Assembly: GCA_949317995.1 (NCBI GenBank)
Contig: OX439050.1
Coordinates: 4,712,001-4,776,000 of the forward strand
Source: Acholoe squamosa
Taxonomy: Eukaryota > Annelida > Polychaeta > Phyllodocida > Polynoidae
Length of the DNA stretch: 64,000 nucleotides
Direction of reading: 5' to 3'
The translations under genes were made by a program, and so were the position numbers. This document shows, piece after piece, positions 2,989 to 27,044 of the stretch (position 1 is the first letter of the stretch; every line of letters starts with the position of its first letter). Below the pieces are notes generated by a model. That model did not search any database. It was not told the origin of the DNA and saw nothing but the letters and a program-made list of their open reading frames with translations.

Positions 2989-3393
2989 TTAGGCCAAAGA
3001 AAAAAAATATTGTAAGTTTCCGGTAACATGGTTCAAAAACTTGACGTAGGTAGGTCGGATTTTTTTTTTTTTTTTTTGCTGACCAATATGTTGGTTAGAA
3101 TATGGAGATTTTATTATTGATAACCATTACAGATAATCGATTTTAGCTATTATACTAGCCAAAACATGTAAAGCTTCAGTAAAAATCTTGGATTCTTTGC
3201 TTGGGCACAAGGGAAATCTCAAAACATTAAAAATATGAATTATATGTAAAAAATTATGAAAAATATCGAAAAAAAAAAAAAATTGGAAAATTCTTCAAAA
3301 AATTATGAAAAGTTTGTTCAAAAATTCTGAGGTCGGTCCTGGTTGGCTGAGATAGGTTGGGTGACCGGAAACCAAACTTTTTTTTTGGCCTTA
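2989..3393 (+). mobile_element. MITE with GGCCAAA...TTTCCGGT inverted ends
   Basis: The ends are imperfect inverted repeats: TTAGGCCAAAGAAAAAAAA followed by TTTCCGGTAAC on the left, and GTGACCGGAAACCAAAC followed by T-run-GGCCTTA on the right. A second copy lies in reverse orientation at 22976-23340 and shares the inner blocks GACGTAGGTAGGTC and AGGTCGG(C/T)CCT. There is no coding capacity. The superfamily is not identified. Confidence 0.7.
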
Positions 3394-3786: not shown

Positions 3787-3790
3787 CGAG
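3787..3790. other. Target site duplication CGAG (left)
   Basis: CGAG directly abuts the left LTR, and the same 4 bp directly follow the right LTR at 20887-20890. Four to six bp is the range expected for Ty3/Gypsy integrases. Confidence 0.85.
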
Positions 3791-4515
3791 TGGGCTGTGT
3801 GGGTTGTGTTTATATGTATATTAATGTGGTATAATTTGTGTAGTTATTATCAGCTCACTCCGCTGTTCTCACGTATTTGGGAAGACTAACTCTAGTGGTA
3901 TGATGTTGGCTCAGCCCATCCTTTTAACCAACACCAAGACGCCGATACAAGTCACCATTTATTGTTCATTGGTTATTCACAGTTACAGTTGTTTGGTGAT
4001 CTCCTTCAAGGTTGTACAGCTTCACCGACATTAGTCTATTCATACAAGCAGTTCATGTTTTAACAATCCGATGCTACTGGAGAGGTATGAGTGCCATAGA
4101 GATCCTGTTCAATCCATTCTTACATTGGCTAAGTGTAATACTAAATACTAAACAGCTTCATCCTCGTCTACTCCAGGAGTATGTGTTGCCTCCTCGGCTG
4201 CTCCCACAATACTGACTCCTCCCTATCTCTTACCAACCCCTCACACCTTTCAGACGCCGATGTTTGGCTCACCCGTATTCCCCCCTCCCCCTCTACAGAA
4301 TCTACCTGACCAGATCTCGTCGACTCCCCTCCGTCTACACATTCCACAGCCTACCATAAACTCTTAGCTACCATAAACCCTATACAGGACTCCCATAGCA
4401 CTCTCCCATATAGCATATAATAAATACACACATAATACAGCATACAATAAATACCTACATAAGTGTACCCTGTTATACCCGTTCATTATAATTATTGGCT
4501 ATTGATGACAAAACA
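3791..4515 (-). repeat. 3' LTR (725 bp)
   Basis: Compared by eye with 20162-20886, this copy has the same length and I found no difference. In element orientation it starts TGTTTTGTC and ends CACAGCCCA. It contains AATAAA at 3963-3958 on the minus strand. A 67-residue open frame inside it is also present in the other LTR and has no recognisable features. Confidence 0.95.
3958..3963 (-). terminator. AATAAA polyadenylation signal in the LTR
   Basis: AATAAA reads on the minus strand toward the 3' end of the element, with about 170 bp of LTR left after it. The same motif in the 5' LTR is at 20329-20334. It is a plausible R/U5-type poly(A) signal. Confidence 0.5.
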
Positions 4516-4525
4516 GGTGCGGGCG

Positions 4526-4535
4526 CTCCCCTCTT
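4526..4535 (-). other. Candidate polypurine tract
   Basis: The minus strand reads AAGAGGGGAG just upstream of the 3' LTR. Ten bases (4516-4525) separate it from the LTR boundary, whereas the plus-strand primer tract usually abuts the LTR. Either the primer extends further or cleavage occurs off the purine run. Confidence 0.5.
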
Positions 4536-5390
4536 GTGACGCGAGTCACACCAATTGTCAAGCATAAATTATGCCTGAATACATCTTCTGTATTGTTTTG
4601 TCACTAATACCTGAGGTAATCATCGTTATTATATTATACATTTCAATAGTTATTTATATACATACATATGCAACACACTTATATAATACCATGCATTATT
4701 ACTATATATATTTTCCACACTGCATTGGTGACTTATTCTTAGCGCAAACTTGTCCTCTAACATATATTTTATTATTACAATTCTCTCATTCCTTGATTCT
4801 CAATTTGTTTTTCTTTCCTTTGTTATTTATTTTACTCATTCACTCGCCTTTACTAAGCACTTTGTCCCATTCTATGTTTATATATTCTTTTTACTATCCT
4901 TACCCGGGAGTCGACACCAGTTACACCCAATCGGGCCAATAAATCTCCTTACATCTGTCAACTCCTTGTTCCGAAACGTTCCCCTCTATCTACCCTTTGC
5001 CCCAAGCATCACTCTAAAACACACTCTAACGCGTCTTGGGTTACACCTGGCAACCTCTTACTTAACTCACGCGTGCACAGCTTGTCAACGAGTATATACA
5101 TCAGAAATCTTTTCACTTGCCACATTACGTCGTAGTTAGTGTCTCATTAGTTGGTCGTACATTTAAATTACAGTTTCTTTTGGCTATATTATCTTACTTA
5201 ATAATATACACTGGCACCATTCCCAGACATTATATCAATTCATTTGTAGATAGTCTTTGTATTGTCTATTCCATCCTTTCGTCTCACGCCAGCTGCACGA
5301 TATCTTTCTCCCCCCCCCCTTTTTCTCATGTCCTGCCACCGTCTATGTCAAGTCTCTATCATGATGGCGTTTTATTCATCACCTTCAGTC
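4536..5390 (-). other. 3' untranslated region of the retroelement
   Basis: Between the env frame stop and the polypurine tract there is no minus-strand frame of note. The plus strand is pyrimidine-rich and gives several open frames (4571-4942, 4750-5139, 5117-5506) with T-rich, hydrophobic low-complexity translations. I treat these as composition artefacts. Confidence 0.5.
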
Positions 5391-6521
5391 TCATTCATTC
5401 AGGTCCACGTACACCGATGACGATCCCGTCCTGGGCTCTTGACCTCGCAAAGCCACGTTCACCGACTCTTTATGACCCTTGTTTACTGAATATGATACAG
5501 CCGTAGCCCCATATGATTCTCCAGGTACTTCTGGTAACTGTCTTGATCTTCTTAACTGAGCCATGGCTCTGGCATGGCCCGTGTCAGATAACTGATGTGT
5601 ATTTATCTCTCTGTTCCTTATTGGTGTCCAGCCCGCCGCTGATATCATCGGTATCTCTAGTGGTACACCTGTCGCCAGGCCCCCACTATACCTAATCAAT
5701 CTTGTCATCACCGTAAATCCATAGTCACCGTTCAGTATCCCTGCTAATTTCTTTGACACCTTCACAGTGGCCGGTAATGGCAATGGCACTGCGTTTTCCG
5801 CCGTTGCCATCTCAGTGGAATATAACACTCGACCCCACTGCACTGTAGCTATGTACTTCGGGCACGAATAGCTTATTGCTACGTCTCTAATAAGAGCCTG
5901 TTCTGCTGGTCTTTGAAATACCTGGTCCAAAGGCATTAGACTCTCCCCCAATGGTATTATTTCTGTGATCTCTTTAGTTGCCACCTGTAGATACAGTCCA
6001 TCCACTGGTTGAAGCCTCTTTAGTTGTCGCACTTTCCTCACCAGTAACGCTATTATTATTATCAGTACTATCAATATCAATGATAACATAGCTATTGTCG
6101 TTTTGTGTTCCGGATCTTCTTCCTCATAATTACCTCCGACATCTTCACCGTATTTTTCATAGTCCCAAGTTTCTAGACTCCTTATTCTCATAGGCATTCT
6201 TGCTAATATGTATGCCATTAATAGTCTTTTTAAACAAAAATATTGTACCACCATCAGAGTCATAACAATCACCCCTGCAATCATTATTGGTGAATAATCC
6301 CATAGTGATTCAGTAGGAAAATGGCCTCCACCACTCATGCCATCCAAATCAGGTAATGCCGATCCGTCTTCCATTGCACTCACCAAATTCTTCAGATTGA
6401 CAGCTGCTGGCGACTGTTGTATCCTAGCCTTGTGCTTCATTTTGGTCTTTACTAATTTTGGCAACACTTCATCTTGCAATACCTCTACAGTTTCACCATT
6501 TAATACGGCCTTTATCCATGT
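5391..6521 (-). CDS. env: Env downstream part with membrane anchors, after amber codon
   Basis: This segment continues the env frame: the distance from the env start (8141) is a multiple of three, and the only interruption is the TAG at 6524-6522. Numbering from the first possible start (TTG at 6479), it has a hydrophobic segment at about residues 63-83 (start SPIMIAGVIV), an acidic stretch at 109-125, a second hydrophobic segment at 127-147 (MLSLILIVLIIII), then a basic and soluble tail of over 200 residues. There is no good ATG near its beginning, so independent translation is unlikely. I read it as the membrane-proximal, anchor and cytoplasmic part of Env, reached only by amber readthrough, or lost in this copy if the stop is a mutation. 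Confidence 0.7.
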   Translation of the reverse strand, partial: TWIKAVLNGETVEVLQDEVLPKLVKTKMKHKARIQQSPAAVNLKNLVSAMEDGSALPDLDGMSGGGHFPTESLWDYSPIMIAGVIVMTLMVVQYFCLKRLLMAYILARMPMRIRSLETWDYEKYGEDVGGNYEEEDPEHKTTIAMLSLILIVLIIIIALLVRKVRQLKRLQPVDGLYLQVATKEITEIIPLGESLMPLDQVFQRPAEQALIRDVAISYSCPKYIATVQWGRVLYSTEMATAENAVPLPLPATVKVSKKLAGILNGDYGFTVMTRLIRYSGGLATGVPLEIPMISAAGWTPIRNREINTHQLSDTGHARAMAQLRRSRQLPEVPGESYGATAVSYSVNKGHKESVNVALRGQEPRTGSSSVYVDLNE

Positions 6522-8141
6522 CTATTTCTTAACGCTGTTCATTTGTAGCAAATCGTTATTTACAAAAGTCACATTAGTTTCCATGTTCACATGACCACAT
6601 CCTGCCAAACTGTAAGGCATCCACGCCCCGGCAGTCATGAATGCGCAATCACACCCAATGTTCAATATGGCGTAATGATGCATGTTCACCTTAACAGGTG
6701 GGCTTGACTGACACATCAATTGACCTTGTATGTCGGGTCCCGATACCAAAGTACGACCCTTTCCCAGTGCTATCGCAAATGAAGGAAAATTTGGTTGCAC
6801 TATATAGTTGATCTCACATGTTTCTGCTATGGCCACCTTGTCATTTCTTATTAGTGCCGCCATGCACCCTCGCTCGGCTATTTTTCTCATGTGTGGAATA
6901 TCTGGGCATACTGCTATTGAGTTGCCATGGCAACGCGCCCAATTCACCACTGGCTCTGATATATAATACCGCCCATTCTTTGATATGGCTACTTCTGATG
7001 GCAATCCCTCTATTCTCGTCCCGTCAGCTTCTTTATTGGCCAGCCGCACTGGTACTGGAAACACCTTTACAGAGTATACACAAAATATGTGTTCCTCTGA
7101 CACCACCGGAATCCTTATCTGCATTTTTACACGACCTTGGTGCTGATATACTCGCACCACACTATTATCATAGTAATATTCCGGATCAGTAAAAGCGACT
7201 CTAAATCGTGGGTACGTAGCCTTTAGATATACTTCAGTGTTGATTATAGCTTCTTTCAAATCTTCTCTAGTGACCAATTTTGAGGATAGTTTTCTTCGTG
7301 ATGCCAATCTTACCTCAGCTGCCATATCCTTTATCTCAATGAGTTCATTTAATAAATGTATAATATACCCCCATTTGACCCTTGTCAGCAGGCTTTCATG
7401 GTTGTATACAATGGATAGTTCATATAATGCCACACTGTGCATAGTTTGAGTTCTTTCCAGCAATTTCCGTCTTTTCAATGATATCTTAGCCATTTCATAC
7501 AATTGTAACTGTCTATCAGCCAACTCTCCCACTTCCGCCATGACGTCCTCCAAGCCATTGCTAGTACTTGTGGCCAATGTTTTAATAACATCACGCATCT
7601 TATAATATGATGTCTTCAGTAATTGAATATCTTTTTCATTTCTGGCTACATCATCAGCTCTCCCAGTGCCAAAAATATAGTACGACAACTCTCCTATAAT
7701 ATTTAGACCTGGTATACCTGCTCTCTTAGACCTTTTGACTTGTTGTTTTTCAGGTATGTTTTCCATCAGCTTTTCCACTTCCTCCTCTCTGGCCTGTATT
7801 AATTTTCTAATAATTTGATTCAGCCATTCTTCTTTCTGTTTGATGTTGTCACAGGTATCTTCAAATAATAAGGTTCTGTTATGATGTTGAATATCACACA
7901 TAACCTGCATGTTCTTCACACATTGTTCATAAATACTTTCCATTTCCGGCTCTGGTAATCTATCTGGTATCTCTAATACAAACACTTGTGACACATGATT
8001 GTGCTCAGCCGTAGAAATACGTCTACCAGGTTGCAAAATGACACCTAATTCGGCTCTCTCTAAAGTCTCGAAAGTGTGCCTTCCAGCATCTACCACACCC
8101 CACAAGGAACATAAGACACATAGTATAGTTAGCCACGCCAT
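6522..8141 (-). CDS. env: Env, F-like fusion glycoprotein (ectodomain)
   Basis: The 539-residue frame starts at an ATG in strong context (AAAATGG). Residues 1-19 form a signal peptide (hydrophobic LTILCVLCSLWG). A furin-type site RSKR lies at 137-140, followed by a Gly-rich hydrophobic stretch (AGIPGLNIIGELSYYIFGTG, 141-160) and a DD pair. This arrangement matches the cleavage site plus fusion peptide of baculovirus F and errantivirus Env proteins. A long helical region follows (about 165-290), then a Cys-rich ectodomain. N-glycosylation sequons include NRT at 88 and NVT near the end. The frame ends at an amber codon before any transmembrane segment; the anchors lie in the same frame downstream (5391-6521). 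Role in the family: membrane fusion for cell entry. Whether this copy makes a functional protein is unknown. Confidence 0.78.
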   Translation of the reverse strand: MAWLTILCVLCSLWGVVDAGRHTFETLERAELGVILQPGRRISTAEHNHVSQVFVLEIPDRLPEPEMESIYEQCVKNMQVMCDIQHHNRTLLFEDTCDNIKQKEEWLNQIIRKLIQAREEEVEKLMENIPEKQQVKRSKRAGIPGLNIIGELSYYIFGTGRADDVARNEKDIQLLKTSYYKMRDVIKTLATSTSNGLEDVMAEVGELADRQLQLYEMAKISLKRRKLLERTQTMHSVALYELSIVYNHESLLTRVKWGYIIHLLNELIEIKDMAAEVRLASRRKLSSKLVTREDLKEAIINTEVYLKATYPRFRVAFTDPEYYYDNSVVRVYQHQGRVKMQIRIPVVSEEHIFCVYSVKVFPVPVRLANKEADGTRIEGLPSEVAISKNGRYYISEPVVNWARCHGNSIAVCPDIPHMRKIAERGCMAALIRNDKVAIAETCEINYIVQPNFPSFAIALGKGRTLVSGPDIQGQLMCQSSPPVKVNMHHYAILNIGCDCAFMTAGAWMPYSLAGCGHVNMETNVTFVNNDLLQMNSVKK

Positions 8142-8549
8142 TTTCTTCTTATTATGGCTTCCGGTTACAGTTCGAGTTGGGCTACTACGACTCCTAACTG
8201 ATCGCTCCTGGAATTTTTTTATGGATCTTGAACACTTAATAAGCCCTATCGTGTCAGATAGTTCACCAGTTCATGACCCTTTTACCCCTTCCTGTATATA
8301 TTTTCCCGTCACTCTAAACACGTGTGCCTTCCTCTCCTATCTAGCTGTACGTCTCTTCCATCTGATAACACCAATTTATTGGATTGGAGTCTTTGTCTCA
8401 GCGACTCCTCCTAATGTGCCCTCAATTTTTTTTTACTATAGTTTTCACTATATTTTTGTTTTCTTATTTCAACTTCCCATCCCCTTTGGTTAGATACCTA
8501 GAATTAAATTCTCAGTCGATGCTTGACTTCCACCCTGTTCGCACTGAAG
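8142..8549. other. Spacer between env and the antisense gene
   Basis: Env begins at 8141 leftward and the antisense gene at 8550 rightward, so these 408 bp separate two divergent starts. Minus-strand splice-acceptor-like AG sites occur (for example near 8195), which could serve a spliced env mRNA. On the plus strand there is an AT/T-rich stretch near 8425-8470. A bidirectional promoter is possible but only inferred. Confidence 0.3.
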
Positions 8550-10447
8550 ATGGCTAGCTATTCCAGCGTTTCTGTCAATGGCGCACTCGTCTATCTCCCG
8601 ATAGATCGTCTCCAGCCCGGCTTCACCTACATCGTCGGCTGCAGAGACCTGTCCTCCACAGATGCTAACGTTACTCCGTGCATGCTAGTATGCACCGGAC
8701 CGCAAGGCGCGACCATGCCCTCACACACCACCATTCGAGATCATCTACGCTTAGCTTGTAACATGACTGATATGACACTGCGCGTCATCCACCTGGATGG
8801 GATGCCCGATCCCAGTTACCGCCTGCAATCAACTGCTGCTGTTCCACCTATTCCTACTCCTGCTTATCAACCAGCTTATGTCGACATCACTCCGCCTCCA
8901 GTCAACCCTACCACTCCTTTCGTGCCACCTTGGAATCCCACTCTGATGTCGCCCATAGGTGCGCGTCCCACCTATAGCGCTATAGTGCCTGCTACCTCTG
9001 CTCCAAGTCTCGCATCCACCTTTACCTCCAATGCGCTACCAACTTGCACAGCGACCCTTCCTCTACGAGTGGACACCTCCCACCAATATTCTCTGCCTGC
9101 CAACTTCGCTGTGTCATCAACTTCTCGTCCATTGCCACCTCAGCATCACTCTTCATATGTAGACTACAATGTGTTTTCTCACCTTCCTGCTACTTCCGGT
9201 GTTTCGCCCTTACCTAACACACCTTCGCTAACCACCACTGCACCTCTGACGTCCAGAACAACCCTAACATCCGCATTTACCTATTCTGCCGCTGCTTCTC
9301 GTCCCTTTTCTACTACCAGCGCCACTACTTCCGGTCAGTTTCCTGCTGTATCTTCATTAAGGATGCCTCACATCACCATCCGAGCTGCTCCAGCTGCAGA
9401 TGCCCGCGCCACCTCGGCTTCTAGGTCTCCGCCTTCCTGCCTACATACGCCCGCTCTGGCCCTGACCTCTTCCACTTCCGGTCAGTTTACTTCATCTTCA
9501 TCCACTGCAGCTTCACTTCCACACCTTCCAGTAATGTCGCCCTCGTTCTGGAGTACTCTGGCTATCTCACCTGGACATCCACCCTTCTCACCATTGACCT
9601 GTCAGTCCAGCACCATGGCCTCTTCCTCACGACTGACTCACAGTTCTTCTACCATCATATCTCTCTTGACATCTTCATCTGCTACCACTACGCGATATCA
9701 TCCCTATCAGCTTTCTGCCAGACCACAAGCCTCCCGTTCTTCTAATCTTGGAGGTCCTATCCTTCCAACATTGGCTTCCCCAGCTTCTACCCTCTCGCAG
9801 AAGTAAGTATATTTCCCTAGTGATTCATACTTTGATTCCTAGAGACGCTCACTTCGTTCTTGTAATAAGATACTATACACATATTTTCTTTTTTAAAATA
9901 TATGCATAAGCTAACTCTATAAAGTCGCTGAGCTCCTCTGATTTGTGAGTAGTGGCGATCACATTCACAGTCTCAGGTGTATAACTGATCTCATTAATAC
10001 ACCCATATGGCTGAATTTTATGTGTCCTAATACCTTCTTAGAAAAGAATTTCACTCACACTTATTTTTGAATATATATCTACAGCTATAGACATCGTATT
10101 TCCTTTCTCAGAGTCTGGGCTTCTTAAATAATTAAACCATTATAGGCTCTGGTTCTTTAACAGAATGCCTTACTTCTGGACAAATATATCCTTTAAATTT
10201 AGGCCTCTTAATTATGGACCTTGTTACTGGAGTCATTCTATGTGTGTCGCGACTGTGGTCCTGCTGGTTCCGACTAGTGTTTCCATTCACCCTTAGACAA
10301 CTTATAAGGTGCCCCATAGTGGTTGCCTCCTGTATGTGATGCACTTCTTTCTCTTTGTCTCATATACCTGCTTTATTTACTATCTTCAGTTCTTCTCCCG
10401 CTTCATCTGCTGATGATGATGATGCCTCTACTCCTACTAGTCCTTAA
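8550..10447 (+). CDS. Antisense gene of the retroelement, two apparent exons
   Basis: On the strand opposite to gag/pol/env, a frame open from 8523 has its first good ATG at 8550 (AAGATGG). It runs to a stop at 9804-9806, which overlaps a strong 5' splice site (GTAAGT at 9803). A 3' splice site (TACTATCTTCAG) ends at 10389; the exon joined there stays in frame for 18 more codons of the same Ser/Pro/Thr-rich composition, including four Asp, and stops at 10445-10447. The product would be about 436 aa. The first ~100 residues look globular, with several Cys; the rest is low-complexity P/S/T-rich without a signal peptide. The other two plus-strand frames have no comparably long open run here, which argues against a mere pyrimidine-strand artefact. 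Function unknown; no family recognised. Antisense genes are known in some retroviruses (HTLV-1 HBZ) and plant Gypsy elements. Confidence 0.6.
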
Positions 10448-10460
10448 ATCTTCACTTCAG

Positions 10461-11021
10461 GTATGTATTTCTAATATGTTTTATATTAAATGCATCCTAA
10501 ATGGATCCGACCTTTTACAATTTTCCACAAACTGTATTAAGTAGTTAAGTCTTATCCATAGAGTAGGGTGTATCTGAGCCTTAATATCTCTACCCTCTCT
10601 ACAGTGGGCGATGATTCCTTTCCTTCAGTAAATTATTACTGATCTCCATTAATTCATCTCAACCGCTATGAACCTTCCGTTGTCTATGATCCAGGCTTTT
10701 CCACTAGAACTCATGTTTATAGCTTATCTAAACTGCTGATTATGTTGTCTTGTCTTGGTCATGTCCGCGTAGCATGCTAGTTGTTCTATCTTGTTAAACT
10801 TTCGAGTGTAGTCTGTATCTGTTGCTTGCCGATGTCTGTACAGCTGGAGTTCCACTCCTGCACTGCCAACTGTCTTGCTTGTTATTGCATCTTATCTCTT
10901 TCTTTACCTGCGCATGTCTGCTCTCTTCCCCCCCCCCTTTTTCTGTTACTAGACTGTTAATATACATATGTCTGTCTCAGTGTCCGACACTTCCCCCCCC
11001 CCCCTTTTCTCACTCTCGTGT
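10461..11021. other. Non-coding part of retroelement interior
   Basis: No substantial frame reads through on the minus strand. The plus strand shows another donor-like CAG|GTATGT at 10458-10466 just after the antisense gene's stop, suggesting a further 3' UTR intron, and an ATTAAA near 10486. C-runs lie at 10930-10938 and 10993-11004. Confidence 0.4.
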
Positions 11022-11363
11022 TCATTCCCCCGCTGGCTCTGTTTCCGCGCCGTCATTCTCGCGCTGTCTTTTCTGTCTCTTTCCTCCTGTACCCCATTCT
11101 TTCCAGGCATCTGGAGCTGCAAATACTGCCATGGTTATTTGCTGTATCTTCCATGCAGTATTCTTACTTTCCTCAGGTAATTTCCTAACCCAAGTTTTCA
11201 CTTCACCTTTCATTCCCCACAATAATAATGCCACATATTCCATTTCCCCTAGATCATATATTCTCTTAATCAAATCCATGTCGTAGAAATATTCTTCTAT
11301 CTTTTCTCCTGGTGCTCCTCTAAAGGTAGGTGGCGTTATACTGATACCTGCCATTTTGTACAT
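11022..11363 (-). CDS. ORF-C: small Gag-capsid-like protein
   Basis: The frame encodes 113 aa from the ATG at 11363; an inner ATG at 11354 has a better context (AAAATGG). Residues ~6-80 align by eye with the capsid region of the element's own Gag. Both have P-x-F-x-G-x-PGE then a Y(F/Y) pair at the start, a hydrophobic EYVALLLWGMKG / EYAKLGLKKGAS block, and W followed by a P-E-E/G-E-x-K turn. The copy stops after the N-terminal half, then has a basic stretch (KRQKRQREN) and an acidic end, without the RG-rich region or zinc knuckle. It looks like a duplicated, diverged and shortened Gag. By analogy to Ty1 p22 or Fv1, such fragments can poison capsid assembly or restrict incoming particles. That role is inference only. 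Confidence 0.68.
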   Translation of the reverse strand: MYKMAGISITPPTFRGAPGEKIEEYFYDMDLIKRIYDLGEMEYVALLLWGMKGEVKTWVRKLPEESKNTAWKIQQITMAVFAAPDAWKEWGTGGKRQKRQRENDGAETEPAGE

Positions 11364-11453
11364 TTCTTCAACCCCTCACAACGTTCCCTTAACAGGTATT
11401 GTATTTTATAACCATACAGTCCCTCTGTTCCTTCCTATCAACTCATATCCTTT

Positions 11454-11939
11454 CTAGTTATATTTATCAAAGTCTTCAGTTACATCCTCCTCCTCCAGGG
11501 TCGTCTCATTGTCTTTAACCCCGGATGTTAATACTCCTTGGGTGATATGCTTTCCCTTTTGCTTCAGTTTGAACATTTCCCAAGTTTCATCTCTTTGTCT
11601 ACACTGCCTGCATCGTTTCCCTCTACTAGTCTTGCGATGCCTCCTACACTTTCTTGAGAAAAAGAATGCATTAGTCACACTCCCTACTCCATATTTAAAA
11701 TGATGTCTATTTACTTGTTCCCTCAAATATCTTGGCAATCTCGCGATGTCCAATTTCAGTTTTGATATTTTCTGCATTACTATATCCTGTAACGTCGCCC
11801 CATTGTATCTGAATACCTTCGGCAATGAATATCCAAATCCATATATAGCATCCAGCGCGTCTTCTACCTGTTGTCCCCTATATCTCCCTGCCTTTACTAT
11901 AGATGGTGCTCTCTTTCCCGCATCCTCACTAGTGGACAT
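11454..11939 (-). CDS. ORF-B: basic Cys/Arg-rich accessory protein
   Basis: The 161-residue frame starts at an ATG (11939) whose A is also the last base of ORF-A's TAA stop. An upstream in-frame extension to 12017 lacks an ATG (TTG only). The middle (residues ~35-95) looks folded. Residues 96-116 form a strongly basic cluster with three Cys (SRKCRRHRKTSRGKRCRQC), and residues 149-159 are acidic. Arg-rich motifs of this kind bind RNA or act as nuclear localisation signals, as in retroviral Rev/Tat-like proteins; no homology to those is claimed. Coupled translation with ORF-A suggests the two products work together. Function unknown. Confidence 0.62.
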   Translation of the reverse strand: MSTSEDAGKRAPSIVKAGRYRGQQVEDALDAIYGFGYSLPKVFRYNGATLQDIVMQKISKLKLDIARLPRYLREQVNRHHFKYGVGSVTNAFFFSRKCRRHRKTSRGKRCRQCRQRDETWEMFKLKQKGKHITQGVLTSGVKDNETTLEEEDVTEDFDKYN

Positions 11940-11941
11940 TA
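11937..11941 (-). promoter_or_regulatory. TAATG stop/start overlap, ORF-A to ORF-B
   Basis: On the minus strand the stop codon TAA (11941-11939) and start codon ATG (11939-11937) share one base. UAAUG pentamers drive termination-reinitiation in influenza B segment 7 and in the SART1 retrotransposon. The arrangement therefore points to one mRNA making both proteins. Confidence 0.6.
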
Positions 11942-12526
11942 TATGAGATGTTTTATCCCATGTACCTGTTCCAGGTGTTTGGCCGCTCCTGCCGCTGTTG
12001 CTGTTGTTCTGCCACAAATGTGACAGAGCCTTGAGGTCACTTGTCTTCTGCTATAATACTCTTCTATCAATATGTCATCCAATCTGATTGATGCATCCAG
12101 CACAAATTCATCGTCTTTACTATAAAATATTGATGGTTCTGTCTGTGTCGCTGTTTCTGTGGTCTGAGTCTCTCTCTTAATTATACCACCGGTGCCTTGT
12201 AGAGTAGCATCCAACAGCCACTCCCATTCTGTCTGTCCCACAGTGATGTCACGTATGCTATCCCATATGTTTCCCTGATGATTTACCAGGACCTCGGCTT
12301 GAGCTGCTTCCACCACCTGTATTGGCTCTTGCGCTGAGCTTGGTTGGCCTGACGTTGAAGTCGCACCAAATCCTTTTTCATTTGTTTCTGTTGTTGTTGA
12401 ACTTGCTGCAGACACTGTGCTCCTTTCATTGTAAGTGCTATTGCAATAGTTGTCTTGAATCATCCACGTATTATAGTATTGTTGGTATTGCTGTTCTCCA
12501 ACACTATCGTACCAGCTATCTGCCAT
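11939..12526 (-). CDS. ORF-A: acidic protein with C-terminal C2H2 zinc finger
   Basis: The 195-residue frame starts at the ATG at 12526. Residues 1-100 are Q/S/T/Y-rich and low in basic residues; residues ~115-160 include an acidic/hydrophobic stretch (DDEFVLDASIRLDDILIEEY). The C-terminus carries Cys168, Cys171, His184 and His189, spaced C-x2-C-x12-H-x4-H, a classical C2H2 finger. An acidic, Gln/Ser-rich domain plus a nucleic-acid-binding finger is the layout of a transcriptional activator. I infer a possible LTR transactivator, or a nucleic-acid chaperone. It lies 325 bp downstream of pol and overlaps ORF-B by one base. Confidence 0.65.
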   Translation of the reverse strand: MADSWYDSVGEQQYQQYYNTWMIQDNYCNSTYNERSTVSAASSTTTETNEKGFGATSTSGQPSSAQEPIQVVEAAQAEVLVNHQGNIWDSIRDITVGQTEWEWLLDATLQGTGGIIKRETQTTETATQTEPSIFYSKDDEFVLDASIRLDDILIEEYYSRRQVTSRLCHICGRTTATAAGAAKHLEQVHGIKHLI

Positions 12527-12851
12527 CCGTCCATCAGCACCTGCTATTTACTTTGAGGTCTTATCTCGTCCCTCGTTGTGCGCGCACTGCCACCTCCTGA
12601 TGCATCTCCTCCTGCATATACCTGTTGCGCTGGCCTCCCCCCCCTCCCCTCTTTTCCTACCTTGCCCTACTTTCCCCTTTTCTTTGTGTATCGCCCTCCT
12701 TTCCGTCTACCTGCATGAGTCAGCTTGACCTGCTCCTCCGGGCGGCCCCTCCCCCTTCGGCACCTGCATCACCCCCCCTTCTCCCTCATAGCAACACACG
12801 TGAATACTACAGGATTATCGCCCATCCTGTAGCATCCCGTCTAAGCTCACC
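12527..12851 (-). other. Spacer between pol and ORF-A
   Basis: There is no minus-strand frame of note. Short C-runs lie at 12639-12652 and 12774-12780. Splice-acceptor-like sequences on the minus strand may lie here, which would allow a subgenomic mRNA for ORF-A and ORF-B. This is not resolvable by eye. Confidence 0.35.
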
Positions 12852-15800
12852 CTATTCTCCATCGCTGGATGAGCTGAGCTCCTCTCTGCCTCTCCTGTGA
12901 TGCTTACAAATCGGTCCCTTTGGAATGATATGTTCACTGCTAGATTCCTCACTCATAATAGCCCCTGCAGCCAATTGCGCTCTCCTATCTCTTTGCCTCC
13001 GTCTCTTCTCAGCTCTATCCTCTCTCTCTTTTCTCTTCTGTCTTCTCTCCAATTCTTCTCTCTCTCTTTCTTCGTCCATCTGTCTCTTCACCTCAACATT
13101 TCTCACTCTACCCTTCCTTTTCTCTTCATTATCCTGTCTTCGGCCACCCTCGACCTTATCAATATCACTATCCTGTAACCCTTTCTTTTTACACCAATTA
13201 TCGACCACAGCTTCCTGCCTGTGCTTCTCCCGGCTATCTCGCCTTACAACTCCATCTTTCTCATTATCAGATTCCTGTATAGGTGCGCGCGATCCAGCTC
13301 CGGCCACCTCTCTCTTTTTCTCATGTGCACTTCTATCGTCGTCTGACGTATTCAATTTGTCCTCCTTATCAGCGCCCGCTAACGCTGTATCCTCCAGACC
13401 AGATGAAGGATGTTCCACCTCAGTCACCCCTCTCGGGTTCTCATGTCCTATGTCTTCTTTATCCACTTGTGATTCCACTTCTGACTTATCCACTTCCACA
13501 GACCTCTCATCTTTGGCTACTCCTTCGTCATTTTCACCCTCCCCTTTGTATGCTCTCTTCAGTTTATTCACATTTACCAAGTGAGGTATCTCTTTGCCCG
13601 TCTTCACTGCTCTCAACCTCACCCTGTTATCCCCCACCACCTCTATTATCCTATGTGGCCCCGTGTATCTACCAGCAAACTTCGATGTATTATTCACCGC
13701 GCATTTCGGATCATAGTAATATACCCACTCCCCCTCTATAAAAGATACAGGTCGAGCCCGTCCATCCAATCTACGTCTGAGCTGCTCCTCATACCTAGCA
13801 GTATGAGCGTTGGCCGCCTCTTGTAATAACTGTATGCTATGATTTGTTCTAAGAAACCAATCCCTCTCAGATGGCACTTTAGGCAGTGGCCTTTCCTCAG
13901 CAAAGGACATAGCCACTGGATCCCTCCCGAATTGTAGTGCATATGGTGAAAACCCCGTCCTCATACTGATATTGGAGCGCACTGTCCACAATGCAATGGG
14001 TAACAGTTCTGGCCAGTGTTCATGATCCTCGGTCACATAGCATCCTATCGTATCCTCTAATGATTTATGCAATCTTTCAACCCTGGCATTTCCGGTCGGA
14101 TTCCTAGAAGACGTAAACCTCTGTTTGGTTGATAGTCTAGCTGTAACCTCACGAAAAACCTGACCCATATATGTAGACCCTCTGTCGCTGCACATCACTT
14201 CCACCTTGCCGTACCTACACACGATCTCCCGTAGAAACACCCCAGCTGCCGTGTGCGCAGTCGTGTCTTTAGTACAGAATGCCTCCGGCCATCCCGTCAG
14301 AAGGTCTATGAAGGTCATAATATATTTATAACCTTCTTTGGACCTACGTAGTGGCCCAACAAAATCTGTCTGTATCACTTGCCATGGATAATCCGGCGTA
14401 TCCCATGATCTTGCCTTGGCTCTAAAGTGAGGTGCTCTTTTTCTCAACGCGCACCTTTCACATAGCCGCACGTACCTAGCTATGTCCACCATCATATTTT
14501 TCCAATAAAACCGAGCCTGTACTTTTGTATTCAGCGCCACTGTTCCCACATGTCCTCCGCACATAATATCATCATGCATGAGATAGAGCACTCTATTCAC
14601 CATAGCCTTAGGCACCACTATTCTTGGGTTTAGGTCAGCTATAGGCCCACCCCTCTTTCTAGCTGGTTTTATATACTTGCATAACAATCCATCCTTCATA
14701 CCCATGAAATCAGCATTATGTAAAATCCCTCGCGCCTTTTCCTCATCCACTGGCAATTCATCTCCCGCCAAATATCTCATCATCCCCCTGCAGAATCCAT
14801 CCTTCCACTGCTCCTGAATGAAGGTTTCCCTATCCAATTCCTCCCCTATCAGTTCCATCACGAGTAACTCACATCCCACCTCAGGCTCAAACTCCCCCGA
14901 CTCCTCGCCAGGTGTATCCTGTCCCACTGCCAACGGCACTCTGGATATAAAATCCGGCAGGTAGTGAGTGGCTCCCGGCTCATACCTAATCTCATAGTCA
15001 AAGTCAGTCATTGCTAAACCCCATCTAGTCAACCTTTTGGATGGAGCCTTACTGGCTTGTTGAAGCAAAGGTATTAATGGTTGATGGTCTGTTATTATCG
15101 TGATCTTAGCCCCAGTCAGCATATCCTCAAATTTCTTCAATACTCTTATAACAGCTAGGCCTTCTTTCTCTGTTATAGTGTAGTTTCTTTCAGCCTTTGT
15201 AAATGTATACCCATAATATGTTACCGGTCTCAGCAATCCATCCCTTTTTATACAGATGGCCGCTCCACACGCGCCATCCGAAGCATCTGTTAAAACATAA
15301 AAGTGACCCCCGATCTCTGGATGTACCAATAACGGTGTGCTAGCTAATGCTGCTTGTATTTTCTTGAATGACACCTCACACTCATCTGTCCACTTAAATG
15401 GCACCTTGATTTTCAACAAATTATTCAGAGGCATCGACAAAACAGCATAGTTAGGAATAAAACTCCTGTAATAATTACAAAGCCCCAGAAAGGATCGAGT
15501 TGTATGTTCATTATACGGTCTACCAAATTCCTGCACCTTTCTGATCACCTTAGATTGCGTCTGCACTCCCTCAGCATTAATAATGTGCCCCAAAAACTTG
15601 ATTTCCGCTTTGCCCCACTCACACTTTTCCGGCTTGACTGTTAACCCTGCTTTACCTAAAGCTACTAATACTCTGCCGACATTAGTAATATGGCTGTCCA
15701 CATCCGGATCAAAGATAATGATATCGTCTAGGTAGGCTAGACAAGTACGTGGTATTAAGCCCCCTAGTGCTAATGACATAATCTTAGTAAATTGCCATGG

Positions 15801-17270
15801 GCTCTGCTTCATACCAAACGGCATCCTCGTCCATTGCCAAACTCCCGAGGGTGATTCAAATGCTGAGTATTGCCTGCTGTCATGATGTAAATCGCACTGA
15901 TGATACCCACTGAGCAAATCCATGGCTGTAAAGATTATAGGTTTTCTGTATGCCATATACAAAAACATGCTTCTGGCTGTGGGCATAGGATATGTGTCAT
16001 CCGCCGTAATAAGATTCAACATGCGATAGTCTGTACATAATCTAGCCTTTCCATCCTTCTTCTGCACTACCACCAACGGACTTCTCCAGACGCTGTCACT
16101 GGGCTCAATAATTCCCAACTTTAACAATTCCCTCACCTGTTCATCAATAATATCCATTTTCTGAGGAGAATACCTGTATGGTCGTGCCATACACGGACCC
16201 TTGGACTCATCGACCCTTATTTTCATTGGAGCCAATGAACAATGACCCAACTCCTTCATAGAAAATGCTATAGTGTCCATGTTGACCACCAACATTTCTC
16301 TGAATACCTTCTGCTCCTCCAGCGTCATCATAGTGTCACCCAAATCAAGGCCCCTGATCTTCTCAATTTTATCCAGCCTCTCCTGCTCACTTAATGTAGA
16401 AACGCCACATCCACCACCATTGTTCTGATGATCCCTCCGGTGCATTGATCCTCCCCCAACATCTTGACCATTCCCCCGCCGTTCTTCATTACATCGTGCC
16501 ACAATCTCACGAGCCTCATCCTTTCTATCCCTGCCAACATTAGCTGTATCAATTACCTCCAGCAAATTAAGTTCCGGTTCATCTATGTCTTCCGCATATG
16601 CTATAACCTCAGTTGTATCCACATACACTTGCCTGTCAGAGAGATTAGCAATTCTCATATACCATTTCTTCCCCACATAGTTCACCGCACCATCCGCAGC
16701 TACCACCGCCAAATTAGATGGTCTCAACAAGACCGTTGTTCCAACCCTTTCAGCCGCAACATCCCATCCTTTCACCGTCACCAATCTTTCCTCCCATGGG
16801 TCCAAAATCGCCGCTACTTCAATTGAGACCGGATCCTCAGTAAATAGACGTACCTTTCCATCTATAGCTATAATCTGTGCCCTTGCGTCAATCAGAAAAT
16901 TACGTCCCAGCACAATATCATAAGCCAGTGAATCCACCACATTAAAATCATAGTATATGCAAGCACCATCCATAAAACACTGCAGTCGCACCGTCTCATA
17001 AACTTGTAATGATGTTCTGTCCCCCAGACGCACCTTCCCCAATTGAGATGGCTGCCTGTCCCAAATTGCTCTCTCACTTATACTACTCACAATTGTCCGT
17101 GCTATAAAACAATCAGACGCGCCCGTGTCCACTAAACATCTGTATGTATTCTCGTCAATAGTACACTGAACCAACCATGGCGCTTTGTCTTTTGATCCCC
17201 TGTTTCCCGACCCATCCCCTGATATCAAATTTAATTCTGGGGTAGGAATGAGCCGTTGTGCCCGTTTCCC
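12852..17270 (-). CDS. pol: Pol polyprotein, made by -1 frameshift from gag
   Basis: The frame is open from 17282 down to 12852 and has no ATG at its head; entry is by the slippery site at 17270-17264. Numbering from the codon at 17228 (1458 residues): aspartic protease LVDTGAS (DTGA 34-37); reverse transcriptase ~345-555 with FTAMDLLSGYHQ and AYLDD (YLDD 499-502); RNase H ~640-760 (TDAS, TEKE, TDHQ, PDF); integrase zinc domain H885/H893/C923/C926; catalytic D955, D1015, E1051 with the D,D-35-E spacing; GPY/F module ~1183-1226. No chromodomain is seen. The last ~230 residues form a highly charged K/E/R/D tail, unusual in length and of unknown role. Expected products: protease, RT/RNase H and integrase for copying and inserting the element. 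Confidence 0.95.
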   Translation of the reverse strand, partial: GKRAQRLIPTPELNLISGDGSGNRGSKDKAPWLVQCTIDENTYRCLVDTGASDCFIARTIVSSISERAIWDRQPSQLGKVRLGDRTSLQVYETVRLQCFMDGACIYYDFNVVDSLAYDIVLGRNFLIDARAQIIAIDGKVRLFTEDPVSIEVAAILDPWEERLVTVKGWDVAAERVGTTVLLRPSNLAVVAADGAVNYVGKKWYMRIANLSDRQVYVDTTEVIAYAEDIDEPELNLLEVIDTANVGRDRKDEAREIVARCNEERRGNGQDVGGGSMHRRDHQNNGGGCGVSTLSEQERLDKIEKIRGLDLGDTMMTLEEQKVFREMLVVNMDTIAFSMKELGHCSLAPMKIRVDESKGPCMARPYRYSPQKMDIIDEQVRELLKLGIIEPSDSVWRSPLVVVQKKDGKARLCTDYRMLNLITADDTYPMPTARSMFLYMAYRKPIIFTAMDLLSGYHQCDLHHDSRQYSAFESPSGVWQWTRMPFGMKQSPWQFTKIMSLALGGLIPRTCLAYLDDIIIFDPDVDSHITNVGRVLVALGKAGLTVKPEKCEWGKAEIKFLGHIINAEGVQTQSKVIRKVQEFGRPYNEHTTRSFLGLCNYYRSFIPNYAVLSMPLNNLLKIKVPFKWTDECEVSFKKIQAALASTPLLVHPEIGGHFYVLTDASDGACGAAICIKRDGLLRPVTYYGYTFTKAERNYTITEKEGLAVIRVLKKFEDMLTGAKITIITDHQPLIPLLQQASKAPSKRLTRWGLAMTDFDYEIRYEPGATHYLPDFISRVPLAVGQDTPGEESGEFEPEVGCELLVMELIGEELDRETFIQEQWKDGFCRGMMRYLAGDELPVDEEKARGILHNADFMGMKDGLLCKYIKPARKRGGPIADLNPRIVVPKAMVNRVLYLMHDDIMCGGHVGTVALNTKVQARFYWKNMMVDIARYVRLCERCALRKRAPHFRAKARSWDTPDYPWQVIQTDFVGPLRRSKEGYKYIMTFIDLLTGWPEAFCTKDTTAHTAAGVFLREIVCRYGKVEVMCSDRGSTYMGQVFREVTARLSTKQRFTSSRNPTGNARVERLHKSLEDTIGCYVTEDHEHWPELLPIALWTVRSNISMRTGFSPYALQFGRDPVAMSFAEERPLPKVPSERDWFLRTNHSIQLLQEAANAHTARYEEQLRRRLDGRARPVSFIEGEWVYYYDPKCAVNNTSKFAGRYTGPHRIIEVVGDNRVRLRAVKTGKEIPHLVNVNKLKRAYKGEGENDEGVAKDERSVEVDKSEVESQVDKEDIGHENPRGVTEVEHPSSGLEDTALAGADKEDKLNTSDDDRSAHEKKREVAGAGSRAPIQESDNEKDGVVRRDSREKHRQEAVVDNWCKKKGLQDSDIDKVEGGRRQDNEEKRKGRVRNVEVKRQMDEEREREELERRQKRKEREDRAEKRRRQRDRRAQLAAGAIMSEESSSEHIIPKGPICKHHRRGREELSSSSDGE

Positions 17271-20122
17271 GGCCTGCGAACATCATTTCCCTGATCTCGT
17301 TGGTCTCTGTTCTGCTGAGAGGATGACAACTGATCCCTGTATTTCTTCAAAAACGTGCACTCCTCTGTAGAATGTGTAGTAGAGTCATGAATTAAGCAAT
17401 AGATTGCCCCTCCTCCTTTCTGACTCTCTCCTGCATCTCCCATCATCCTAGCATATTCCTGTGCTCTTCTCTGACCTTTATCATCCCCCTGTTGACCCTG
17501 CCTGCTTCCTCCTGTGTATCTCTGTCCTTGAAACCTGTTATTGAAATACTGAGATGCGTTATACTGATTTCCACCGCGTCCCCCTTGATAATTCCATCCT
17601 CGGCCTCCACCGCCTGTACCAAACTGCCTATTCTGACCATATGTTCCCGCGCCGGTCCCTCTGCCCGCCTGCGCCTGATACTGCCCTTGTGAGTTACCAC
17701 CCCTTCCAGCATATTGTCCCTGCTGATTCTCCCGTCCATGTTCCATCTCTCTGAGCCCCCGTCTATATTCCATAGTGCACATCTCCACCACTGCTTTAGT
17801 TTGTTCTCTAGCATACTCTTTAGGATCGAATTGATCGTCCCCACATGCTCCATCCCGAGTCCCCTCAGACTCTAGCATGTGTAGCTGCGCCACACCTTTG
17901 GAGTTCCTGCCCTTCTCCACATTTTCCCAATAAGACGCCAGTCTGAGAGCCTCTTCAAAAGAATCAGCATTGTGTTTCATCAGGTCCTTATCAATGGGCG
18001 GAAGCAAACCCCCCACAAAGACTGACAATTTGATGACATCAGGAACATCCAACTCGTCATATTCCTTTATTTTCAATGCGAAGTCCCAGACCGACTGTCC
18101 CTTTTCCTGCTTCAGACAGTGCAAATCCCTATGTTTCTGCCACAGTGGCCTTTTGTCTTCAAAAACCCTCTTCACTATAGCCACTACTTTGTCCAAAGTA
18201 TCCTTTTCCCCCTCTGGAATACCATCCATCCATTTCGATGCCCCCTTCTTCAAGCCCAATTTTGCATACTCAAGATGTTGATCCGGAGACCATCCAAATA
18301 GCTTTTGCATTCCATTCAATTCCTTGAAATATCTCCGATAATCCTCCCCAGGCTCCCCATTGAAGGATGGTAGTTTAACATTCGGACTAGGCGCCATGTC
18401 GTCGTCTTCAGAACCAATAATAGGTGCAATATCCTCCTCCACCTGTTTCTCCGCATCCAAATCACCCACTGAGCTCTCTTCACTATCGTTCCCCTGTACA
18501 CCAGTTCCAACACCTGCAGCTACGGAGCCCTCAGCGGCTTCCTCCCGGGCCTCCCTTTCTATCTGCCGTCTTCTCTTTTCATCCGCTCTCCGAGCCCACC
18601 AATCCTCCCAGTCACCCGAAACATCAGTCTGAAGATGGCTATTTAGAACATCATCTAAATGCCCCTCATCTGTAGTACGACCTGTACTATTGCCTGAGCG
18701 GATATTCGCAGTTACCTTCCTCCAATTTACAGTGTCGTTCAAAAATCTCTCCCTTCGTGCTACACGCTCCCGGTCTATCTCCAGCCTCGCGGGCGGCTCT
18801 TCCCCATCAATGGCCTGCCGATATCTCAGCTCCTGTTCCAATATGGCCCTCCCCCTCTCTATGCTTTGTCGTACCCTAATATTAGTGTTCTGCAGACCTG
18901 TAATAACTTCATCCACCCTTGTTTTACTCACAGACTCTCCCAGACGACTGTCACTTCGATCACCTGTAACAACCGGTGTAGTACAGCTTGTCCAATCCTG
19001 TCCAACTCCACCAGTCTCATCCTGACCCACCAAGTCTCTATCACTTAACTTTCTCCCATTCTCAACAACCACCAAGAAACCAGACGGTAGCAATCCTGCA
19101 CTCCCCCCTTGTGAATCACCACAGGCCTCCGACCCCTGTTCCTGTATCTTCTCACCGACGTCCTCGCTTTGCCCCGGCACTGCCACCACCGTAGACGCCC
19201 CGTCTACTGGATCATTCTCCTCATGTGCGTCCCCCACATTCTCATGACCATCCTGTGTTCCACTCTCATCCACCTGTCCGCCTTCATGTACTGGCTCAAT
19301 TAACCCCAATGACGTTGCAATCGCTTCAAAATTCAAATCCTCATCACCAATATCCGCCACATCCCCCTCAGATGCGCGTCTGACTTGTCCCTGGTCCGCT
19401 GTACCCTCAAACTCAAGGCACCTAGGAGTAGCCTTACAGAAATTAATACTGGAGCTCCTAGCAATGGGCGTCGAAAAATACTTATAATTCACTAATCTGT
19501 CTCCTGTCGTCCATCCTTTGCAGAGATTATCAGGCCGTTCCCCTGCATCAGCACTCACTGTGTGCTCCTGAACCGCCGCCTGTTGCCCATCACTAGAAAT
19601 ATCAGCCCTGGTCTCCGACTCTGCCGCAGATGACTGATGCTCGTTCTCCACTCCCAATGCTGAGAATGGTCCAGAGGTATCGTCCACCACCACCGACCCT
19701 GCTGGTTCAGAATCAGCCGCAGTAGACAATTGTAGGCCAGACGTCCCCCCAGACTTGGGATCCCTTTGAGACGACGCCCGCTCCTCCTCTGACCGAGCCA
19801 CGGGGAATCCAATCTCTCTAGACACCACCTCTCCAGGCAAAAGCACCACTTGCGACCTGGGTCCTAATTGCACATGCACATGTGTGTGATCCGATCTAAG
19901 AGTGACACGTGATTGATCAGGTCCCGCTTCACTCACTCCGGATCTTCCACCCTGTCCCTCTGCTACACCACTATGTGCTACTGCTGCATTCCCAGGCAAT
20001 GTGCGCGCTGCAGGTATGATAGTATAGACTTCCACACCGTCACTACTGTCAGTGTGTGGCGATGCCGCTGAGTCACATCCAGCGTCTGAGCTGTTAGGTA
20101 TCGGGTACGGCGAGCCGCTCAT
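17231..20122 (-). CDS. gag: Gag polyprotein
   Basis: The open frame begins at a GTG (20146), but the first ATG is at 20122, giving 963 aa. From that ATG: an acidic, Ser/Gly-rich, low-complexity N-terminal region (~1-400), a charged coiled-coil-like part (~405-525), the retrotransposon Gag capsid core (~577-737, with LPSFNGEPGEDYRRYF and QSVWDFALKIKEY), an RG/GQ/Y-rich RNA-binding region (~794-882) and one zinc knuckle C909-x2-H912-x4-H917-x4-C922 (YCLIHDSTTHSTEEC). This CHHC finger replaces the retroviral CCHC form. Gag forms the particle and packages RNA. At 963 aa it is long for a Gypsy Gag, mainly through the N-terminal extension. It overlaps the pol frame by about 50 nt, where the -1 slippery site sits. 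Confidence 0.93.
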   Translation of the reverse strand: MSGSPYPIPNSSDAGCDSAASPHTDSSDGVEVYTIIPAARTLPGNAAVAHSGVAEGQGGRSGVSEAGPDQSRVTLRSDHTHVHVQLGPRSQVVLLPGEVVSREIGFPVARSEEERASSQRDPKSGGTSGLQLSTAADSEPAGSVVVDDTSGPFSALGVENEHQSSAAESETRADISSDGQQAAVQEHTVSADAGERPDNLCKGWTTGDRLVNYKYFSTPIARSSSINFCKATPRCLEFEGTADQGQVRRASEGDVADIGDEDLNFEAIATSLGLIEPVHEGGQVDESGTQDGHENVGDAHEENDPVDGASTVVAVPGQSEDVGEKIQEQGSEACGDSQGGSAGLLPSGFLVVVENGRKLSDRDLVGQDETGGVGQDWTSCTTPVVTGDRSDSRLGESVSKTRVDEVITGLQNTNIRVRQSIERGRAILEQELRYRQAIDGEEPPARLEIDRERVARRERFLNDTVNWRKVTANIRSGNSTGRTTDEGHLDDVLNSHLQTDVSGDWEDWWARRADEKRRRQIEREAREEAAEGSVAAGVGTGVQGNDSEESSVGDLDAEKQVEEDIAPIIGSEDDDMAPSPNVKLPSFNGEPGEDYRRYFKELNGMQKLFGWSPDQHLEYAKLGLKKGASKWMDGIPEGEKDTLDKVVAIVKRVFEDKRPLWQKHRDLHCLKQEKGQSVWDFALKIKEYDELDVPDVIKLSVFVGGLLPPIDKDLMKHNADSFEEALRLASYWENVEKGRNSKGVAQLHMLESEGTRDGACGDDQFDPKEYAREQTKAVVEMCTMEYRRGLREMEHGRENQQGQYAGRGGNSQGQYQAQAGRGTGAGTYGQNRQFGTGGGGRGWNYQGGRGGNQYNASQYFNNRFQGQRYTGGSRQGQQGDDKGQRRAQEYARMMGDAGESQKGGGAIYCLIHDSTTHSTEECTFLKKYRDQLSSSQQNRDQRDQGNDVRRPGNGHNGSFLPQN
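17264..17270 (-). promoter_or_regulatory. -1 ribosomal frameshift heptamer G_GGA_AAC
   Basis: The minus strand reads GGGAAAC, phased as G GGA AAC in the gag frame: the X XXY YYZ rule. A -1 slip here leads directly into the open pol frame, 31 nt before the gag stop (17233-17231). The same heptamer serves gag-pol in FIV (known). A second GGGAAAC lies at 17208-17202, phased in the pol frame; its meaning is unclear. No downstream pseudoknot was resolved by eye. Confidence 0.75.
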
Positions 20123-20142
20123 CAGTACAATGATAAGCCCAA

Positions 20143-20159
20143 CCACTAATTCTCCACCA
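20143..20159 (-). other. Primer binding site (tRNA not identified)
   Basis: Two bases (GA) after the 5' LTR the minus strand reads TGGTGGAGAATTAGTGG. It begins TGG, complementary to a tRNA 3' CCA end. The implied acceptor sequence does not match a nuclear tRNA that I can name with confidence. Confidence 0.65.
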
Positions 20160-20161
20160 TC

Positions 20162-20886
20162 TGGGCTGTGTGGGTTGTGTTTATATGTATATTAATGTGG
20201 TATAATTTGTGTAGTTATTATCAGCTCACTCCGCTGTTCTCACGTATTTGGGAAGACTAACTCTAGTGGTATGATGTTGGCTCAGCCCATCCTTTTAACC
20301 AACACCAAGACGCCGATACAAGTCACCATTTATTGTTCATTGGTTATTCACAGTTACAGTTGTTTGGTGATCTCCTTCAAGGTTGTACAGCTTCACCGAC
20401 ATTAGTCTATTCATACAAGCAGTTCATGTTTTAACAATCCGATGCTACTGGAGAGGTATGAGTGCCATAGAGATCCTGTTCAATCCATTCTTACATTGGC
20501 TAAGTGTAATACTAAATACTAAACAGCTTCATCCTCGTCTACTCCAGGAGTATGTGTTGCCTCCTCGGCTGCTCCCACAATACTGACTCCTCCCTATCTC
20601 TTACCAACCCCTCACACCTTTCAGACGCCGATGTTTGGCTCACCCGTATTCCCCCCTCCCCCTCTACAGAATCTACCTGACCAGATCTCGTCGACTCCCC
20701 TCCGTCTACACATTCCACAGCCTACCATAAACTCTTAGCTACCATAAACCCTATACAGGACTCCCATAGCACTCTCCCATATAGCATATAATAAATACAC
20801 ACATAATACAGCATACAATAAATACCTACATAAGTGTACCCTGTTATACCCGTTCATTATAATTATTGGCTATTGATGACAAAACA
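20162..20886 (-). repeat. 5' LTR (725 bp)
   Basis: This is a direct repeat of 3791-4515 with no difference seen by eye. It should hold the promoter for the genomic RNA, and TATA-like AT-rich sequence lies near 20780-20800. The CGAG duplication follows at 20887-20890. Confidence 0.95.
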
Positions 20887-20890
20887 CGAG
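20887..20890. other. Target site duplication CGAG (right)
   Basis: This is the second copy of the 4-bp target; see 3787-3790. Confidence 0.85.
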
Positions 20891-22975: not shown

Positions 22976-23340
22976 GGGCTAAAAAAAAATGGTTCGTTTC
23001 CGGTCACCCAACCGGAAACCTCAGCTAAATAGGGCCGACCTCAGAATTTTTTGAAGATTTTTTTCATTTTTTTACTGATTTTTTAAAGATTTTTTGAAGA
23101 TTTTTTTCAAAATTCTCGAACGTTCTCTTTGAAAATTGTTATTCGACATGTAGGGACATATTTCCCAATGGTTTTCTAATATCTCATGCAGGAAATGAAC
23201 TTTTCTAACATCCACCAGTGAAACTCAGGAAAGAATGACTATATGAGACCTTGGACCAAAAAAAAAAAAAAAAAAAAGACCTACCTACCTCAACTTTTTG
23301 GACCATGTTACCGGAAACAAAGCTTTTTTTTTTTGGCCTC
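22976..23340 (-). mobile_element. MITE with GGCCAAA ends, inverted copy
   Basis: This is the reverse-orientation relative of 2989-3393. It contains TTTCCGGTCACCC, AGGGCCGACCTCAGAATT, CCTACCTACCTCAA and ATGTTACCGGAAAC in the mirrored order. The two copies bracket the LTR element at about 2.1 and 0.6 kb from its ends. Confidence 0.7.
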
Positions 23341-26462: not shown

Positions 26463-26499
26463 TTCGCTGGTACCGCGGTCCTGCAGCGGTACCAGCGAA
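26463..26499. other. Perfect 14-bp hairpin
   Basis: TTCGCTGGTACCGC (26463-26476) and GCGGTACCAGCGAA (26486-26499) are perfect inverted repeats around a 9-base loop. Confidence 0.6.
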
Positions 26500-26893
26500 G
26501 TGGCTTCTGGCTGTGTTCGTAAACACCTGAAAGCCTGGTGGTCTACTACTCGTCGAATATGTGACAAAATGAATGAAATACTGCATAATTGTCACAGATA
26601 TAATGTTTTATTGTCACAACTCATCAGTTTTTATCGCAGGAAACCGGAAAATTGAATTACTCACTCATATGAGATGGCTAACATGCGAAAACCCACCACC
26701 CCCCCTGTTGATAAATAATGACCACTCCCTAACTGCGGGCGTCGTGCGATACGGCACCTGATCGGCACGTGCGATAACCCCCCGACATTCCTCATACTCG
26801 TGAACCTTTGCATTTATTTCATGTTATTTTCATCTAAATCAGATAAATAGAATCAAATTTACCAGAATTACTCGCCATAGGTATTGTTTACAT

Positions 26894-26917: not shown

Positions 26918-27044
26918 TCAAATGGTCATGTGACCTCGGCGTGTGATATTTTCGCGGGTTATTGCACGGGGGGGTGTGCGATACGGCCCTCGAGTGCTAG
27001 AGCTATGGGCTGTCAGTATCTCGGGCATATCAACATGAAATAAA

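Follow-up and report, generated by a model that had tools for sequence, protein, structure and literature searches.

A young, env-bearing Ty3/Gypsy element of the annelid Acholoe squamosa with a diverged capsid-lobe paralogue and further open reading frames on both strands

Can an animal Ty3/Gypsy (Metaviridae) retroelement carry regulatory genes of its own, as complex retroviruses do? The question is raised by a 64,000-nucleotide stretch of the Acholoe squamosa genome (contig OX439050.1, positions 4,712,001 to 4,776,000; hereafter the window), in which positions 3791..20886 are a single inserted long terminal repeat (LTR) element of 17,096 bp that codes on the minus strand. The evidence supports a young env-bearing Ty3/Gypsy element with additional open reading frames (ORFs), which occupy part of the 8.3 kb between the end of pol and the 3´ LTR. 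Homology to the element's own Gag shows one of them, ORF C, to be a single, diverged capsid lobe. That this copy has added its own regulatory genes is, in our judgement, probable but well short of assured.

Results

A recently inserted Ty3/Gypsy element

5´ LTR, 20162..20886, minus strand: 725 bp, same sequence as 3791-4515.
gag, 17231..20122, minus strand: 963 aa from ATG; a long N-terminal region, a capsid part and C-x2-H-x4-H-x4-C near the end.
Slippery heptamer GGGAAAC, 17264..17270, minus strand: in the gag frame, inside the gag/pol overlap.
pol, 12852..17282, minus strand: in the -1 frame to gag; protease-like, reverse transcriptase (RT), RNase H and integrase regions and a 231-aa charged tail.
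Env-like part 1, 6522..8141, minus strand: 539 aa; signal-peptide-like start, RSKR at residue 137, 14 Cys; stops at an in-frame TAG.
Env-like part 2, 5391..6521, minus strand: 376 aa; same frame past the TAG; two strongly hydrophobic segments.
3´ LTR, 3791..4515, minus strand: 725 bp, same sequence as 20162-20886.

The two LTRs match at every base of their 725 bp, end in TG...CA and are flanked by a 4-bp target duplication, CGAG (3787-3790 and 20887-20890); such ends with a short duplication are those of Metaviridae. Because both LTRs are identical, the copy is young and has had little time for decay. The RT, RNase H and integrase domains of Pol score above the Pfam cut-offs, and with protease matches below the curated cut-off Pol has the Metaviridae order of protease, RT, RNase H and integrase. 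Among solved Pol structures the nearest is that of Ty3 (7q5b, E 7e-92). The initial annotation, which described a recently inserted Gypsy-type element with gag, pol and env, thus holds for the coordinates, the LTR structure and the gag and pol frames; its env corresponds to an env-like frame interrupted by an in-frame TAG.

The longest stop-free run of the env block was matched by none of 1000 dinucleotide shuffles, the test applied to all frames below. A Gly/hydrophobic run follows RSKR, which we take to be a furin-type site. No envelope family was found in Pfam at E 0.1 (part 1 gave sub-cut-off, chance-like matches and part 2 none), part 1 was alone in having PHROGs matches, two at E 0.03, and had no match among PDB sequences, and an unaligned structure model (pLDDT 35) was not interpreted. 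An F-type Env fold is therefore without support from Pfam, PDB sequences or the model, and the "F-type" label is a matter of motifs picked by eye.

Additional frames between pol and the 3´ LTR

ORF A, 11939..12526, minus strand: 195 aa, net charge -14, one C2H2 pattern near the C terminus.
ORF B, 11454..11939, minus strand: 161 aa, basic, C-x2-H-x8-C-x2-C; its ATG overlaps the stop of A as TAATG.
ORF C, 11022..11363, minus strand: 113 aa; a single capsid lobe and a tail modelled with low confidence.
Antisense ORF, 8550..9806, plus strand: 418 aa, ATG at 8550 to TAA at 9806; an N-terminal part of about 110 residues, then Ser/Thr/Pro-rich.
Possible antisense intron, 9803..10447, plus strand: GTAAGT donor at 9803 and a possible short second exon at 10390-10447, predicted only.

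ORF C aligns with the element's own Gag at 19 identical positions of 70 (BLASTP, E 5e-9). Its structure model is capsid-like with moderate fold scores; the sequence match carries the case, with the fold scores standing beside it. The lobe matched is probably the first of the Gag capsid, judging from the position of the match in Gag and from dArc1 residues 43-121, while C-terminal lobes match too. ORF C has no Pfam match, and a profile of C and Gag gave eight matches among PDB sequences, all at E 0.31 or worse. The longest stop-free run of C was reached by 2 of 1000 shuffles, and its three-base periodicity is weak (z 1.7, 31/500). In Gag itself the leader is unusually long, with about 580 residues ahead of the capsid part matched by C, and the whole protein has a net charge of -51.

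ORFs A and B abut such that the stop of A and the start of B overlap as UAAUG in the RNA. Their stop-free runs were each matched by 0 of 1000 shuffles, and the periodicity of A is modest (z 2.7), compared with very high values in gag, pol and env and no signal in three non-coding controls. In a codon model whose training set was gag, pol and env, A, B and C each do best in their coding frame. Lys and Arg make up 20% of B, which has no similarity to the element's own Gag; the Cys/His patterns of A and B are presumably of zinc type. Against Pfam, A gave no match and B sub-cut-off, chance-like ones.

The longest stop-free run of the antisense frame was likewise matched by 0 of 1000 shuffles, and in the codon model this frame outscores the other two of its strand. 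Periodicity across the stretch is very high (z 23.3), in a metric that is blind to strand; it resides in the Ser/Thr/Pro-rich part (z 24.5), the first 110 residues giving a weak signal (z 1.5, 39/500). No tandem array is listed in this stretch. Ser, Thr and Pro constitute 43% of the protein, which has no Pfam match. The GTAAGT donor overlaps the antisense stop codon, and splicing of the antisense gene is possible on the basis of predicted sites. Acceptor 10390, which would prolong the Ser/Thr/Pro style and add an acidic run, ranks tied sixth among the 15 plus-strand acceptors scoring at least 5 in 9860-11010.

The initial annotation had named an acidic ORF A with a C2H2 pattern, an Arg/Cys-rich ORF B, a Gag-like ORF C and a spliced antisense gene. 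The first and third descriptions agree with the values above, and B is recovered as a basic frame with a Cys/His cluster. The antisense frame has good support; its splicing, with no clear favourite among the 15 acceptors, is possible.

A proposed mechanism

If the additional frames are genes, the element might work as follows. Gag-Pol would be made by -1 frameshifting, the pol frame overlapping that of gag by 52 bases (17231-17282). A single sense mRNA may yield both A and B, with B translated by reinitiation at UAAUG. The acidic A, with its one finger, and the basic B, with its metal-binding-like cluster, could be nuclear or RNA-binding regulators. ORF C may enter Gag lattices through its lobe without completing them, and would thereby tune or limit particle assembly in the manner of Ty1 p22. 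The antisense gene would be a second regulator from the opposite strand, comparable to HTLV-1 HBZ or the antisense ORFs of plant Retand; its intron, if real, would not be removed by splicing of the sense genomic RNA and so would persist through retrotransposition. We infer these roles, as did the initial annotation for transcription, RNA export, particle assembly or host defence; the one relationship tested is that of C to the Gag capsid. Coupled reinitiation at overlaps of the UAAUG type is described for influenza B segment 7 (PMC5972666), and SART1 is named for it in the title of a reference cited there.

Weighing the evidence

Several observations weigh against a set of element-owned regulatory genes. 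The TAG at 6522-6524 splits the env frame of this copy, falling between the portion with the signal-like start and RSKR and the portion with the two hydrophobic segments, and the run behind RSKR stays below the hydropathy threshold (1.4, 19-residue window). ORF B shows no periodicity (z -0.4), and its protein-database search returned 15 word-sharing candidates, none at E 10; the first 150 antisense residues returned 191 candidates, again none at E 10. The codon model scores the antisense frame poorly, under all three sense frames of the same stretch, which its Ser/Thr/Pro make-up may explain. No good sense acceptor by consensus was found near A, C or env, and none of the 15 antisense acceptors is clearly favoured. 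Of acceptors scoring at least 9, the plus strand of 4516-12850 has 14 and the minus strand one across the entire element. With a sense strand this rich in purines (54-73%), acceptor-like plus-strand sites are expected regardless.

Part of this evidence would also be expected if the extra frames were passengers, acquired by one recent lineage, open through youth and without function for the element: the identical LTRs leave little time for decay, B lacks periodicity, and relatives of B and of the antisense N-terminal part were not found. Yet C, although 51 of its 70 aligned residues differ from those of the element's own Gag, remains open and models as a capsid lobe, the antisense frame carries its strong periodicity, and the sense strand between env and C has an ordinary longest stop-free run, equalled by 613 of 1000 shuffles. 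We regard the passenger explanation as unlikely, although it deserves serious attention. Less plausible is that the element took up the antisense ORF in reverse from a host gene, whole or fragmentary, rather than evolving it as a regulator. The opposite orientation, distinct composition and possible intron of this ORF fit such an origin, whereas its N-terminal 150 residues gave no relative at E 10; a conserved host gene would probably have been detected, and a fast-evolving one might escape. We consider it still more improbable that C is a decaying relic, whether from a second gag or from a nested element, and not a gene. A single lobe remains, the nucleocapsid is gone and periodicity is weak, as in a remnant, but the open frame is rarer than chance, the codon model favours it, and it is uninterrupted through the Gag-matched region despite deep divergence. 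A copy that acquired regulatory genes of its own remains our preferred explanation.

Pol relatives and the insertion site

A 12-bp stem begins 8 nt downstream of GGGAAAC. It was considered as a frameshift-stimulating structure and rejected, since folding of the stretch does not stand out from that of shuffles (z -0.70, 46/200). Gag has no gag match in Pfam, where it gave sub-cut-off, chance-like matches, and none among PDB sequences.

A protein search with the RT-integrase part of Pol gave 681 of 4918 candidates at E 1e-30 or better, and the best 120 of these 681 are described here. Identity over the part searched is 65-70% for the 12 best listed (P0006-P0017), 50-63% for P0018-P0032 and 39% or less for the remaining 93 of the 120. 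Matches lower in the list include proteins with animal names, which together with the env-like gene fit an animal host. Pol alone found no relative in the viral and genome contig collections. A 29-row Pol alignment found one 31% relative there (L001), whose frames were listed without further comparison, and a 30% match in a contig of a bacterial metagenome-assembled genome (L002), which was not used.

The Pol tails of 13 proteins (the element's own and P0006-P0017) were compared. Nine were aligned, the own tail and those of eight relatives; P0011 and P0017 were left out for want of the cutting motif, and P0006 and P0009 for their short tails. All nine tails are extended and charged, with invariant Trp and Arg positions. 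The own tail (12852-13560) measures 231 aa and those of the eight relatives 320-393 aa, with a common block; a Ser/Glu-rich terminal stretch is present in seven of the eight. From sequence comparison, the tail is possibly a clade-specific addition after integrase.

A TGG lies 2 nt past the LTR and marks a candidate tRNA primer binding site; familiar tRNA ends did not fit the post-LTR stretch. Self-priming in place of tRNA priming was ruled out, as the LTR holds no 8-17-base complement of that stretch. At 4516-4575 a purine-rich tract is not directly beside the 3´ LTR; the nearest (AAGAGGGGAG) stops 10 bases short.

No further copy or fragment of the element was found within the window (tblastn, 1e-3). 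The element lies inside a 77-nt inverted repeat with 84% complementarity (arms 3000-3076 and 23258-23334). Tandem arrays are abundant outside it (331-1271, 23857-27900, 30792-31765, 40717-41867, 50090-51115, 56566-57853 and 61683-64000), with main units of 14-77 bases. A scan of the window predicted one tRNA-Asp and gave no Rfam match.

Discussion

In the Caenorhabditis elegans element Cer1, the CERV protein is required for nuclear export of genomic RNA and comes from a spliced five-exon mRNA whose first exons are in the gag frame, in contrast to the several separate frames, env-like gene and antisense ORF found here (PMC10309623). The plant Gypsy element Retand shares a long region between pol and the 3´ LTR with antisense ORFs, for which a regulatory role has been suggested. 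However, a TRP28 domain occurs in antisense ORFs of 97% of Retand clusters, whereas Pfam gave no match for the antisense ORF of the present element, which also differs from Retand in its env-like gene and its capsid paralogue (PMC11963269). Ty1 p22/p18 is, like ORF C, an element-encoded single capsid lobe; p18m is identical to the C-terminal capsid domain of Gag, whereas C is a separate, diverged gene (PMC8458377).

Drosophila errantiviruses are likewise Metaviridae, and their Env combines a furin-type site with a segment that anchors it in the membrane (PMC12992720, PMC5408687); RSKR and the hydrophobic segments of the env-like frame are candidate counterparts. Their LTR ends, AGT/AnT, and palindromic target differ from the TG...CA, the non-palindromic CGAG and the extra genes seen here (PMC5408687), placing the element outside the Drosophila-type errantiviruses on LTR ends and target. 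HTLV-1 HBZ, like the antisense ORF, is an opposite-strand gene in the 3´ part of the provirus, although HTLV-1 belongs to Retroviridae and its 3´ LTR drives expression of HBZ, a bZIP protein (PMC10186651); the antisense ORF here is a predicted frame. Bdelloid rotifer LTR elements, also of animals, have captured extra ORFs after pol; these ORF3s are esterase, exonuclease or env-like, and none is described as capsid-like or antisense in the parts consulted (PMC5408684).

No animal Ty3/Gypsy element with this gene set appeared among the open-access literature matches listed, as judged from titles and the starts of abstracts. What is new is the combination and not the kind, because precedents exist for accessory genes in Ty3/Gypsy (Cer1 CERV, Retand antisense ORFs), with partial ones in Ty1 p22 and the bdelloid ORF3s. 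That one lineage of animal Metaviridae independently evolved a complex-retrovirus lifestyle, combining an antisense regulator, reinitiation-coupled nuclear or RNA regulators and a capsid-lobe governor of assembly with env, is a tentative and somewhat doubtful proposal.

Complex retroviruses are characterized by accessory genes, for which Ty3/Gypsy elements offer only scattered precedents. A single element uniting an antisense gene and a paralogue of the capsid lobe with an env-like gene would make it possible to test whether retroelements have become complex in their regulation more than once, and whether capsid fragments that limit their own element, such as that of yeast Ty1, arose in animals as well.
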